Source: a candidate division WOR-3 bacterium (GTDB lineage: Bacteria > Hydrothermota > Tepidihabitantia > Tepidihabitantales > Tepidihabitantaceae). Taken from it: a stretch of DNA of 64,000 bases. The position numbers and the translations under genes are program-made. The notes under the pieces are model-generated. The model was not told the DNA's origin. It saw only the letters and a list, made by a program, of their open reading frames with translations, and did not search any database. The stretch covers positions 1-64,000 of the forward strand of contig JABLXZ010000003.1 in the NCBI GenBank assembly GCA_013177935.1, in the 5' to 3' direction. This document shows, one piece after another, positions 7,010-46,982 of the stretch (position 1 is the stretch's first letter; every line of letters begins with the position of its first letter).

Positions 7010-7931
7010 TGACTATAACCTCTTCAATTTTTAATTGCCTGTCAATTTGAGGTGATTTTGTCACTCTTTTTCGGTTCCCCAATTTAACGCCACGGTCCTT
7101 AACCGCAATCTTCTCAAAAATTGAGATGAGTTGTTCTCTTAAATACAAAGGCTCACACAGCCGCTGTTGAGCAATCTGCACATATTTCTCCTTTATTTCA
7201 TACCCCACCCATCTACGATTAAGGGCATTGGCGACTTTTATTGTTGTTCCTATACCCAGAAATGGGTCTAAAACTAATTCTCCAGTATAAGAAAAGAGTT
7301 TAATAAGTCGGTAAGGTATTTCTTCGGGAAAAGGACAAGGGTGGTCATACTGGTTGGGTGGAACTGGTGCAATATGCCAGATGTTATTTGCCAACTCTTT
7401 TGTAAACAACTCATCAATAGGAATCTTGTTACTTTCCTTTTCCTCTTTTGTTCTCTCCTTATAAATTTTAGGTCCGCCTTTTCTGAATATCAAAATGTAT
7501 TCGGTCATAATATTGGGGCAATAATAACCCGGGTAGGGGTTTTGGATTGTTACACCCGCTCGTTTTACGCCGCCCGTTACCTTATACCAGATGATATCCT
7601 GGTGAAACTCATAGCCGATACCTTCCATTAACTGGACAAAATGGTGGGGCAAAGGATAGTGCTTTCCGTTATAAAGAACGGTTCCTATAACAACGCAGCA
7701 GAAACCACCCGGTTTTAATACACGATAACACTCCTGAAAACATCCTTTAAGCCATACTAAATATTTTTCATACTCCTCGCCTTTTCTTGTTCTGAACCAT
7801 TTCGTATTGTCTAAAGTATGAACATCATAATCAATGGCATTCCAATAAGGAGGGGAGGTAATTATTAAATCTACTTCTCCCGTTTTTAGCTCGTCCATTT
7901 TCTCACAGGATTTAATAAAGATTTTGTTCAT
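6966..7931 (-). CDS. Site-specific DNA methyltransferase (beta class, N4-cytosine type likely)
   Basis: A 321-residue SAM-dependent DNA amino-methyltransferase. The catalytic motif TSPPYW is at residues 25-30 and the SAM-binding motif LDPFLGIGTT follows at 221-230, so the order is motif IV then motif I, the beta class. SPPY is commonest in N4-cytosine enzymes, though some N6-adenine enzymes carry it. VLKPGGF (71-77) and RRWVGYEIKEKYVQIAQQRL (239-258) fit the remaining motifs, and the middle 120-200 would be the target recognition part. The glycosylase-like gene begins inside its last 44 nt. A promoter with TTGACA and a 16-nt spacer lies upstream, with no Shine-Dalgarno sequence. Together they form an unusual modification module. 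Confidence 0.9.
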   Translation of the reverse strand: MNKIFIKSCEKMDELKTGEVDLIITSPPYWNAIDYDVHTLDNTKWFRTRKGEEYEKYLVWLKGCFQECYRVLKPGGFCCVVIGTVLYNGKHYPLPHHFVQLMEGIGYEFHQDIIWYKVTGGVKRAGVTIQNPYPGYYCPNIMTEYILIFRKGGPKIYKERTKEEKESNKIPIDELFTKELANNIWHIAPVPPNQYDHPCPFPEEIPYRLIKLFSYTGELVLDPFLGIGTTIKVANALNRRWVGYEIKEKYVQIAQQRLCEPLYLREQLISIFEKIAVKDRGVKLGNRKRVTKSPQIDRQLKIEEVIVNEKKYGYKSKNRTK

Positions 7932-44310: not shown

Positions 44311-45285
44311 CTATTTTGTTGGCTGCCAGATAACCTTTCCGTTTTTATCAATATACTTTGATTTACCTTCAGCTTCTACATACGCCAGTCCTTCCCGGAA
44401 ATCGTCACAATAATCAAACTGAGGTTGAATGACAAACTTACCGCTCTTGTCAATATAACCCTGTTTGAAACCAATACCGACAACCGCCAGTCCTTCTGAG
44501 AAACTTTTAGCATTATCAAACTGCGGCTCGATGACCAGGTTTCCACTTTTATCAATGTAGCCGTATTTGCCGCCAATTGCTACTGGCGCCAATCCTTCAG
44601 AGAAATCTCCTACATCATTAAACCGCGGTTCGATGACAACCTTGCCGCTTTTATCGATATACCCGTACTTGTCGTTCACTTCTACTCCGGCTAACCCTTC
44701 GTGGAAACTGCCGGCAAAAACAAACTGCGGTTCGATGACAACGCTGCCGTCTTCATCGATAAAACCCCATTTGTCGTTAATTTCAACTCCTGCCAATCCT
44801 TCGGTGAAACCCCAGGTTAAATCATACTGCGGAGTAACAACAATATTTCCGCTTTTATCAATATAGCCCCACTTGTCGCGAATTTTTACCGGTGCCCGAC
44901 CTTCGGAAAAAGTCCAGGCATCATCGAACTGCGGCTCAATAACAACTTTACCTTCTTTATCGATATACCCCTCCTTGCCGTCAATATCGACCGCGGCCAA
45001 TCCTTCGGTGAAACGTTCGGCATCGTCAAACTGCGGTTTGATGACAATTTTTCCGGACCTGTCAATAAAACCCAATTTGCCGTCAATTTCCACTCCCGCA
45101 AGCCCTTCGAAGAAATACATGGCATGATCAAACTGAGGTTTGATAACAACTTTGCCGGTTTTATCGATAAACCCATATTTGCCCTTAACCCGAATACGGT
45201 ACCTTCCGGATGGCTCGGTTTGAGTTTGTCCGAAAACCAGGGCGAAAATCGCAAGCAGGGTTATGAAAAGCACCAGCCTTTTCAT
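44311..45285 (-). CDS. Exported WG-repeat protein
   Basis: A 324-residue protein with a signal peptide (KRLVLFITLLAIFALVFG) and nine tandem WG repeats of about 33 residues, each with the pattern KxGYIDKSGKVVIxPQFDxAxxFxEGLAxV. WG repeats are thought to form beta-propeller-like or solenoid surfaces; no enzymatic residues are visible. The repeats are near-identical, which suggests recent expansion by duplication. A ribosome site GGAGGT and a promoter at 45328-45355 precede it. It is a single gene convergent with pgpA. Confidence 0.9.
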   Translation of the reverse strand: MKRLVLFITLLAIFALVFGQTQTEPSGRYRIRVKGKYGFIDKTGKVVIKPQFDHAMYFFEGLAGVEIDGKLGFIDRSGKIVIKPQFDDAERFTEGLAAVDIDGKEGYIDKEGKVVIEPQFDDAWTFSEGRAPVKIRDKWGYIDKSGNIVVTPQYDLTWGFTEGLAGVEINDKWGFIDEDGSVVIEPQFVFAGSFHEGLAGVEVNDKYGYIDKSGKVVIEPRFNDVGDFSEGLAPVAIGGKYGYIDKSGNLVIEPQFDNAKSFSEGLAVVGIGFKQGYIDKSGKFVIQPQFDYCDDFREGLAYVEAEGKSKYIDKNGKVIWQPTK

Positions 45286-45355: not shown

Positions 45356-45561
45356 ATTTTACTGATGATACTGATGGCTATTCCGATAAATTTTTCTGTT
45401 TGACCGATTTTGGTTTCGGTGCTATTCTTGGCTGTGGTAGGAATGTGTGGAGCGCTCGAATATTTGGCGGAATGATAACGAATAGAAACCCAGCCTGCAA
45501 AATCTCCTCGCGTGGTGTTCGATGGTGGTTTTACAATGAACAGAAAATACTTTTCCAGAAT

Positions 45562-45656
45562 CCTTTACCTTTAATGGGTTGTGCAGGCTGATAATGAACA
45601 AAAAAGGCTTCCCAATTTCCTCCCCCTTTTATGGGGGAGGATTAAGGTGGGGGTGA
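45562..45656 (+). repeat. DUF559-associated palindromic repeat, copy A
   Basis: Starts CCTTTACCTTTAATG, continues through AAAAAGGCTTC to AATTTCC, then the hairpin TCCCCCTTTTATGGGGGA (45621-45638) and the tail GGATTAAGGTGGGGGTGA. It lies 54 nt before the DUF559 gene. Copies B and C repeat the same order. Confidence 0.85.
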
Positions 45657-45710
45657 AAAATAAGACTGGGTCCCGGAAGAAAAGAACAGATAAAAAGGCT
45701 TAGAGAAAAT

Positions 45711-46055
45711 ATGACCGAGGCAGAGAAGAGGTTATGGTTTCGGGTAAGGAACCGACAGCTTGGGGTAAAATTTCGAAGACAGCAGGCGATTGGAAATTAC
45801 ATTGTGGATTTTGTATGCTTTGAGAAAAAGTTAGTGATTGAACTTGATGGTGGTGAGCATTTTGAAAGTAGCAGGGATGAAGTAAGGGACCGGTCGTTGC
45901 AGAAGCAGGGGTATAAGGTATTAAGGTTCTGGAATAATGATGTGTTAAAGAATACGTTAAAGAATACAGAGGGTGTGATGCAGATAATAATGAAAGAAAT
46001 AACACCCTCCCCTTATTCCCCTCCCATCAAAGGGAGGGGATTTGAACGCCGATAA
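45711..46055 (+). CDS. DUF559 (Vsr-like) endonuclease-fold protein
   Basis: A 114-residue stand-alone protein with the DUF559 signature: MTEAEKRLWFRVRNRQL, KFRRQQAIGNYIVDFVC, LVIELDGGEH and GYKVLRFWNNDVL. D33, E44, D46 and H50 fit the Vsr/PD-(D/E)XK active site. Its target is unknown; the family occurs scattered in genomes beside repeats. The last residues (SPYSPPIKGRGFERR) are translated from an inverted copy of the neighbouring palindrome, so gene and repeat are fused. Upstream codons EQIKRLREN continue the family pattern, so a non-ATG upstream start is possible. No ribosome site is obvious. Confidence 0.85.
   Translation: MTEAEKRLWFRVRNRQLGVKFRRQQAIGNYIVDFVCFEKKLVIELDGGEHFESSRDEVRDRSLQKQGYKVLRFWNNDVLKNTLKNTEGVMQIIMKEITPSPYSPPIKGRGFERR
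46001..46046 (-). repeat. DUF559-associated palindromic repeat, inverted copy D
   Basis: Read on the minus strand it gives AAATCCCCTCCCTTTGATGG, then GAGGGGAATAAGGGGAGGGTG, a diverged version of copies A-C. It lies in the 3' end of the DUF559 gene, so that gene is bracketed by A and D in opposite orientation. Confidence 0.75.
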
Positions 46056-46133
46056 GCAACAAGATAGTATTGTGCTATACTTTAAAGGGATGGAATTTAA
46101 CGATTATGAATGGCAAGGTATTTTTCTAAATGT

Positions 46134-46222
46134 CCTTTACCTTTAATGAATGTCGCAATCACCAGAAATCAGACTTCAGAATTTCCTCCCCCTTTGATGG
46201 GGGAGGATTAAGGTGAAGGTGA
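46134..46222 (+). repeat. DUF559-associated palindromic repeat, copy B
   Basis: CCTTTACCTTTAATG at 46134, then TGTCGCAATCACCAGAAATC, AATTTCC, the hairpin TCCCCCTTTGATGGGGGA and GGATTAAGGTGAAGGTGA. It is a direct repeat of copy A, 572 nt further on. Confidence 0.85.
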
Positions 46223-46327
46223 TGTTTGGCGATATCCTTTCAGGAGCAGGTAATGGTTCTTTTTCTTCGAGCCAGTGGAACAAATTAGGGTGTGTTTTAA
46301 GGAATTGCTTTTATTCACCAGTTATCC

Positions 46328-46355
46328 TTGACACGATATCCGACAATGTTATACT
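46328..46355 (+). promoter_or_regulatory. Promoter of BamE-like lipoprotein gene
   Basis: TTGACA (46328-46333), 16-nt spacer, TATACT (46350-46355); a leader of about 45 nt with AGGAGG precedes the ATG at 46407. Confidence 0.75.
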
Positions 46356-46406
46356 GCTCCAGCAGTGATGTGAGCCATGAGATGCAATGTAAACCCAGGA
46401 GGAACG

Positions 46407-46829
46407 ATGTTAATACAATTAAAGTATATGTGGGTAATAGTGGCTTACTTTTTTCTTTCGTGCGTCCCATATGAGTATGTTCATCACACATCATTGCGCC
46501 AGTTGCGCCTTGGTATGACCACAGATGAAGTTGCCAAAGTTCTTGAAGGTAAATATGTCCGACGGGGAGCATATATGACTAACCAAGGTTACGCCGATGA
46601 GTTTTGGCAGGTTAGAGTCGCGGAAGATTATGCAAGCAGAAAACCCAAAGATAAGTCCGGAGACTACTCAGAAGGAACTTCAATATATTCCGAATCTAAG
46701 TGGTATTATTGGTTGGGGTTTCGTGACGGAAAATTAACTTGGTGGGGTCGCATCGGCGATTGGGGCACCAGCCAGAAAGAAGAAAAAATACAACTTAGAG
46801 TGTTATTCGAGGACAATGATAACCGGTAA
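46407..46829 (+). CDS. Small lipoprotein with BamE/SmpA-like motif
   Basis: A 140-residue lipoprotein: a signal ending FFLSC (about residue 18) and then LRQLRLGMTTDEVAKVLEGKY, the LxxGMTxxEVxxxLG pattern of the SmpA/OmlA (BamE) fold. The remainder is rich in aromatic residues (ESKWYYWLGFRDGKLTWWGR), as in the second strand-turn of that fold. The start is the ATG at 46407, with AGGAGGAACG before it, rather than 46377. Whether it works in the Bam complex is unknown; many solitary proteins share this fold. It lies between repeats B and C. Confidence 0.8.
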   Translation: MLIQLKYMWVIVAYFFLSCVPYEYVHHTSLRQLRLGMTTDEVAKVLEGKYVRRGAYMTNQGYADEFWQVRVAEDYASRKPKDKSGDYSEGTSIYSESKWYYWLGFRDGKLTWWGRIGDWGTSQKEEKIQLRVLFEDNDNR

Positions 46830-46872
46830 GTTTTGCTTGTACAGTTGATTTTATCTTATACATTCTTCGTTG

Positions 46873-46942
46873 TGTCGTAACTATTAGAAAAAGGCTTCAA
46901 AATTTTCTCCCCCTTTATGGGGGAGGATTAAGGTGGGGGTGA
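46873..46942 (+). repeat. DUF559-associated palindromic repeat, copy C
   Basis: TGTCGTAACTATTAGAAAAA, GGCTTCAAAATTTTC, the hairpin TCCCCCTTTATGGGGGA and GGATTAAGGTGGGGGTGA. A solo copy 40 nt before cinA. Confidence 0.85.
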
Positions 46943-46982
46943 TAGGATGGTGGGTTTAAATATAAAGAAAGGATATTGAGCG

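Follow-up and report, generated by a model that had tools for sequence, protein, structure and literature searches.

Among described repeats, the closest counterparts of those considered here are the TM_ECO elements of Escherichia coli (earlier PIT), of which Holder et al. (2015) counted 23 copies in strain MG1655 (PMC4666352). A single strand of TM_ECO forms a stable triplex in vitro; the TM motif occurs in more than 260 genomes, with Neisseria gonorrhoeae listed as unit-rich, and has been linked to local instability (PMC4666352). Neither a mobility gene nor a pattern of flanking genes was given for TM_ECO in that study, whose text contains neither "DUF559" nor "endonuclease" (PMC4666352). 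In Enterobacter sp. 638, 100 such palindromes have been reported (PMC2869309). The REPtron offers a second point of comparison: the gene for its enzyme (RAYT, or TnpA_REP) is flanked by dispersed palindromic units, the GTAG REPs, and mobilisation of non-autonomous palindromes has been proposed (PMC3733652, PMC8266576). The DUF559/YcjD family (PF04480; NF007294; 3HRL) is annotated as being of unknown function, with no role related to repeats; one earlier study places YcjD in the PD-(D/E)XK superfamily and retrieves Vsr with a YcjD profile (PMC1189080). In the locus described here, a DUF559 gene is the partner of a repeat family. The two halves are known separately; their union was not found in the literature searched, where no link between DUF559 or ycjD and a repeat was met in the portions of text covered, most subscription journals and preprints lying outside the search. 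This is weak evidence of novelty.

The locus lies in a 64-kb window (the whole stretch of DNA analysed) from a candidate division WOR-3 bacterium. Its features are listed below, with unit scores from a covariance model, R1.

45561 to 45576, forward strand: 16-nt stretch 5' of unit A, 100% identical to that 5' of unit B (repeat search)
45618 to 45658, forward strand: unit A, left-end unit (44.2 bits, E 1.5e-7, matched at 45619 to 45658)
45618 to 45641, forward strand: hairpin of unit A, TCCTCCCCC-TTTTAT-GGGGGAGGA (sequence inspection)
45711 to 46055, forward strand: ORF of the putative DUF559 nuclease, 114 aa from ATG, frame open from 45657 (PF04480, E 7.2e-37)
46000 to 46039, reverse strand: unit D, right-end unit, inverted (40.7 bits, E 7.7e-7)
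46018 to 46039, reverse strand: hairpin of unit D, CCCCTCCC-ATCAAA-GGGAGGGG, with the tail at 46000 to 46014
46133 to 46148, forward strand: 16-nt stretch 5' of unit B, 100% identical to that 5' of unit A
46184 to 46224, forward strand: unit B, solo, left-end type (38.5 bits, E 2.1e-6, matched at 46185 to 46224)
46905 to 46944, forward strand: unit C, solo, left-end type, upstream of a cinA-like gene (47.7 bits, E 2.8e-8)

R1 was trained on DUF559-linked units, units A and D among them, while B and C lay outside the training set; besides these four, no sequence on either strand of the 64 kb scored above 13 bits. The first-pass annotation of this DNA had recognised three direct copies and one inverted copy, and R1 recovered all of them in the arrangement it described: A and D form an inverted pair around the DUF559 gene, B and C are further copies, and the ORF ends just past D, which encodes the C-terminus of the protein (TPSPYSPPIKGRG). 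The unit length of 70-95 nt given there is valid for A and B and not for C, since the perfect 16-nt 5' stretch is common to A and B only; the core common to all three, from the hairpin through a spacer of 3-5 nt to the G-rich tail, measures about 40 nt. As to the surroundings, a protein of eight WG repeats (DNA period 102 nt) is encoded at 44311-45285 on the reverse strand, and between units B and C lies an ORF of 150 aa (46377-46829, forward strand), lipoprotein-like and weakly matching BamE.

In each window unit the C/T-rich 5' arm of the hairpin is paired with a G/A-rich 3' arm; 3-5 nt of linker separate the latter from a G-rich tail that is the mirror image of the purine arm, with T or A opposite A. 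In unit A the purine arm is GGGGGAGG and the mirror tail GGTGGGGG(TGA); in unit D they are GGGAGGGG and GGGGAGGG, and the two tails are aimed at the DUF559 gene from opposite sides. By inspection, the design of A and D is that of an intrastrand purine-motif triplex. The units are members of the known TM_ECO/PIT kind of repeat. TM_ECO/PIT elements have a near-identical sequence and the same design (a CCCTCxCCC hairpin, a 3-nt linker and a mirror G-rich tail) and, like the units here, are dispersed and sometimes form inverted pairs; they were described without a partner gene, whereas one is present here and, as detailed below, in E. coli too. REPtron REPs, in contrast, have no mirror tail and carry tags. 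Among 138 units from DUF559 loci, GTAG was found within 8 nt of the 5' foot in two and CGTC in none, and the units were therefore not classed as REPs in the strict sense.

Hairpins next to a short gene might be transcription terminators or serve to stabilise mRNA, and the copies at gene 3' ends in Enterobacter sp. 638 were proposed to be terminators (PMC2869309). However, sequence inspection found no T-run after the hairpins of the window units, no Rfam family matched the region, and a terminator does not need a tail that mirrors its arm. PIT motifs showed neither promoter nor terminator activity in earlier work, as relayed in PMC4666352. The link between gene and repeat and the abundance correlation reported below also argue against this function, which we regard as extremely improbable.

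Unit D belongs to a sub-type other than that of A, B and C, with a CCCCTCCC arm in place of CCTCCCCC, and is 80% complementary to B. Exact copies of the A/B/C core number three, all within these 1.4 kb of the 1.96-Mb genome, and the idea that this sub-type is itself a genome-wide REP was rejected on that ground. A wider family becomes visible in the genome only with the covariance model, which detects 22 units of three sub-types. Units of the CCCCTCCC and CCCTCGCCCC types were seen on contigs C1, C2 and C4, often beside degenerate repeats of the same arm, the A/B/C type being found only near the gene; they may have been left by earlier, now lost DUF559 partners.

The product of the ORF is a DUF559 protein, as the annotation had it, and is 42% identical to E. 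coli YcjD. Pfam and NCBIfam searches with it returned DUF559 and nuclease families only, with no Y1 (HUH) transposase domain. Its AlphaFold2 model (pLDDT 78) best matches 3HRL, an endonuclease-like protein of N. gonorrhoeae (Z 14.6), followed by the catalytic domain of the homing endonuclease I-Bth0305I (Z 12.4); the match to Vsr (1cw0) gave a Z of 10.8. By sequence and by this model, the protein is a DUF559 member with a PD-(D/E)XK fold of the Vsr type, and a putative nuclease. Residues D33, E44, D46, H50, D56, R59 and R72, which include the catalytic acidic ones, are invariant in all 81 DUF559 sequences compared. A role in a defence system was considered and rejected, PADLOC giving only a weak partial match to DpdF. 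DUF559 is the only recognised gene between the units, which sets the element apart from insertion sequences and agrees with its first description as transposase-free. The likeness to RAYT/REP systems proposed at the same time is true in part: the units flank a gene and are dispersed, but the GTAG tag and the Y1 domain are absent, and a nuclease of predicted PD-(D/E)XK/Vsr fold stands where the REPtron has a Y1/HUH transposase. The system works like a REPtron and yet is not one, having neither HUH transposase nor GTAG tag.

To place the locus in a wider frame, 80 relatives of the window protein were collected from one-genome-per-species data, giving 81 loci with that of the window. Their record titles name Stahlbacteria/WOR-3, several classes of Proteobacteria, Nitrospirae, Planctomycetes, Spirochaetes, Omnitrophota, Doudnabacteria, Gastranaerophilales, Sumerlaeota, Dehalococcoidales and others. 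A DUF559 gene between two inverted palindromic units was found in more than 10 bacterial phyla. A unit lies upstream at 69 of the 81 loci and an inverted unit downstream at 69, commonly encoding the C-terminus of the protein; 60 loci have units on both sides with the tails facing the gene, and 78 have one on at least one side. A detector independent of R1, defined by stem and mirror tail without sequence training, located 54 units directed toward the gene in the 200 nt preceding it and 51 inverted ones in the 100 nt that follow; farther away than 500 nt, the loci as a whole yielded 26. The same detector found 202 units in the 80 related loci and one in shuffles of 50-nt blocks. Among 42 further loci (16 from Marinobacter and 26 from the window's class, some genomes of which overlap the first set), units are in place at 38, and on both sides of the gene at 29. 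The same flanks are thus found at DUF559 genes of unrelated genomes, a check that the first-pass annotation had proposed. A left unit of the CCCTCCCCC type combined with a right unit of the CCCCTCCC type is seen at many loci, and the block formed by gene and units therefore has defined ends. Variants of the design occur: Bradyrhizobium and two MAGs labelled Rickettsia have a second hairpin between arm and tail. In a gammaproteobacterial MAG (L089), one DUF559 gene is surrounded by several clustered units, which are found in both orientations.

Nuclease and units also co-vary. Sequence distances between nucleases correlate with distances between the units on the left (r 0.46) and between those on the right (r 0.47); left and right unit distances correlate with each other (r 0.60), and all three values lie at the permutation limit. 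The two units sharing a locus are more alike than units drawn from separate loci (permutation p 2e-4). All four statistics were calculated irrespective of the kinship of the organisms. A perfect mirror relation between tail and arm is present in 49 of 138 units, compared with a mean of 10 and a maximum of 18 when tails were swapped between loci (500 trials). Since the same bracketing recurs in more than 10 phyla and the units are scattered genome-wide, the nuclease is likely the dedicated enzyme of the repeat family.

Unit numbers were then compared with the presence of the gene. Units were counted in whole genomes with R1, the counts saturating at the 55 or 101 candidates scored per genome, and DUF559 was taken as strong at 60 bits or more; weak PF04480 matches of about 21-48 bits, many of which lie in longer proteins, were assigned to a separate group and left out of the partner count. 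In the window's class, the 29 genomes with a strong DUF559 gene hold from 4 to at least 101 units (median 30), whereas the median is 2 in the 36 genomes lacking one, 13 of which have none (p 1.1e-8). The window's own genome has 22 units and one strong gene; its two relatives in the same genus have neither units nor a strong DUF559 gene. In other genomes the numbers run up to about 100 units against 1-3 genes. Within genus g3 of this class, unit counts did not differ between genomes with and without the gene. Among 120 Marinobacter genomes, all 16 with a strong DUF559 gene have 6 to at least 55 units (median 24), compared with none in 79 and at least 6 in 10 of the 104 others (median 0; p 1.7e-13). 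These p values, like that for the window's class, take no account of phylogeny, and some of the genomes are incomplete. In the same 120 genomes a Y1 transposase of the RAYT type shows no association with unit number (mean 4.3 versus 4.5 units). Genomes lacking the gene have far fewer hairpins, and so the equal abundance that the annotation had named as contrary evidence was not found. Some genomes are rich in units in the absence of a detected strong gene (G013 with 52, G012 with 41, G016 with 28, and the 10 Marinobacter genomes); the units must therefore be able to persist or spread without a resident copy.

Such genomes would be expected if an unrelated agent or replication slippage spread the units and DUF559, captured between two of them, merely travelled along; the direct repeats at one E. 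coli unit (see below), compatible with slippage, point the same way. On the other hand, a captured gene would hardly be bracketed alike in so many phyla, co-vary in sequence with the units, keep its active site invariant at 81 of 81 loci, or predict unit number where Y1 transposases do not, and we consider the passenger role quite unlikely. Alternatively, DUF559 might cut or resolve hairpins or triplexes that stall replication, without spreading them, and be selected where units are common. This function likewise predicts the abundance correlation; the Vsr fold includes a repair nickase, and TM loci have been reported to be unstable in E. coli (PMC4666352). It leaves unexplained, however, why the gene is bracketed by inverted units with inward tails and why whole blocks are inserted in priA and valS (below), and E. 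coli strains without ycjD tolerate units. Such a protective role seems very unlikely.

In E. coli K-12, ycjD is a DUF559 gene (E 1.4e-49), and its product is the YcjD protein compared above. The 3' end of the gene is formed by an inverted unit that has decayed, with an intact unit about 170 nt downstream. Strain S1-CHI-01-A has an intact unit at the 3' end of ycjD (41.7 bits), and the gene is 12 nt longer. A 12-nt insertion at this end has been reported in ST69 and ST182, its nature not being named in that study (PMC12817139, 2026); it is probably the same difference. E. coli ycjD is the same gene-unit system as that of the window. The gene is present in about 3,350 of 5,426 complete E. coli genomes; unit counts in this species run from 1 to 27 per genome. 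Units occupy 12-27 places in the 37 ycjD-positive strains of a spread sample and 1-19 in its 23 negative strains (medians 19 and 5), a comparison confounded by phylogroup, which both the gene and the number of units track. The sapF-fabI interval of two ycjD-less genomes was rejected as an empty site, as the eef efflux operon occupies it, beside fabI. Two further observations concern E. coli. Directly before the ycjD start, K-12 carries a perfect inverted repeat of about 17 bp (TCACCTCATTCTGACAA ... TTGTCAGAATGAGGTGA; L217, about 7745-7802, reverse strand), which is unrelated to the TM unit and is present also in S1-CHI-01-A. A TM unit (H280) is located at 2489-2540 of NZ_AP023208.1 from strain TUM18781, a 70-kb and apparently plasmid replicon; TM_ECO has been described as not plasmid-associated (PMC4666352).

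The first-pass annotation had proposed comparing filled with empty sites. At about a dozen of the 80 related loci the whole block sits in frame inside another ORF. Hosts, named from their sequences, are PriA (L024, L028, L037 and L057, the positions in L024 and L028 being different), ValS (L061 and L062), a B12-type radical SAM protein (L042, L046 and L049), a UvrD-like helicase (L040) and others, with more in-frame cases within the same genomes. Rickettsia palindromic elements (RPE) are likewise short in-frame palindromic inserts in protein genes and carry no gene; the insert in ValS also carries that of the nuclease. Both states of priA are found in the genus of L028, filled in G065 and G066 and empty in G081 and G082, which fits gain and loss alike. 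Solo units vary as well: between E. coli strains that are 99% identical, a 92-nt difference corresponds to presence or absence of the pstB-pstA unit, the 8-nt direct repeat at the site (AACCGTGT) fitting insertion and slippage deletion equally, and units at ilvC-ppiC and yihR-yihS vary as short replacements. No clean target-site duplication was seen at these three E. coli sites. Two other candidates for clean empty sites were rejected. In the window's genus, the pgpA-cinA interval is without the block in both relatives, but pgpA adjoins cinA in one (G002) and an unrelated TPR gene separates them in the other (G001); it is therefore the whole interval, and not the block alone, that is absent. 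For the Bradyrhizobium block L050, no exact boundary could be drawn because a different palindrome occupies the site in most relatives. The palindromes seen at this intergenic site (L230-L246) are of the CGTC type (CGTCATTCCGGG...); CGTC REPs have been reported without a known transposase.

Homing endonucleases, too, leave a conserved gene with an occupied and an empty allele at the same site, as seen for priA. It could accordingly be supposed that DUF559 is a free-standing homing-type enzyme that cuts block-less alleles, repair then copying unit, gene and unit together; the units would be the protected ends of the block, and a solo unit would be what remains of a deleted block and not a copy that had spread by itself. 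The catalytic domain of I-Bth0305I is the second-best fold match, and in-frame residence in conserved, probably essential genes (PriA, ValS) is typical of homing elements. The Vsr-fold enzymes of the I-Bth0305I type thus share with DUF559 both fold and insertion in conserved genes; unlike them, the DUF559 gene carries a dispersed repeat family of its own. Most blocks are intergenic and occupy differing places, which does not suit site-specific homing; also contrary to this view, solo units are in large excess over genes (22 units to 1 strong gene in the window's genome). Homing of this kind seems unlikely, if somewhat less so than the passenger and protective roles.

The explanation that we favour, and take to be probable, is that DUF559/YcjD is the dedicated nuclease of the PIT/TM units, in a REPtron-like arrangement that uses a nuclease of Vsr/homing type instead of a RAYT. 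With its two inverted units the gene makes up a compact block (hairpin-tail-DUF559-tail'-hairpin'), some 0.4-0.5 kb long, and solo units would be non-autonomous copies produced by means of this enzyme, as is thought for REPs and RAYTs. The enzyme, with its predicted Vsr/homing fold, would recognise the unit when folded as a hairpin or triplex, a form that replication might expose on single strands, and cut at or beside it; repair of the break would then copy the unit, or the entire block, to a new place. The partnership itself is well supported, by block architecture, abundance link, co-variation, conserved active site and the presence or absence of blocks and units; that it is a dedicated one appears very probable. 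Judged from sequence comparisons, mobilisation of the units by the enzyme is fairly probable; nicking as the specific action, which the first-pass annotation had suggested, is a more doubtful proposition. That early interpretation as a whole is partly supported. It is conceivable, though we would advance it only tentatively, that these loci are minimal selfish elements spanning bacterial phyla, in which a nuclease of Vsr/homing fold, with neither transposase nor integrase, recognises a triplex fold, spreads it as dispersed repeats (including those of E. coli) and inserts in frame into essential genes.

An E. coli repeat family without a known agent now has a testable candidate in ycjD, an orphan gene. 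If the favoured explanation is true, the DUF559 system would represent a second, unrelated solution to the problem that REPs and RAYTs have solved, would possibly provide a natural nuclease for triplex-forming DNA, and would account for some of the in-frame palindromic inserts in conserved genes.
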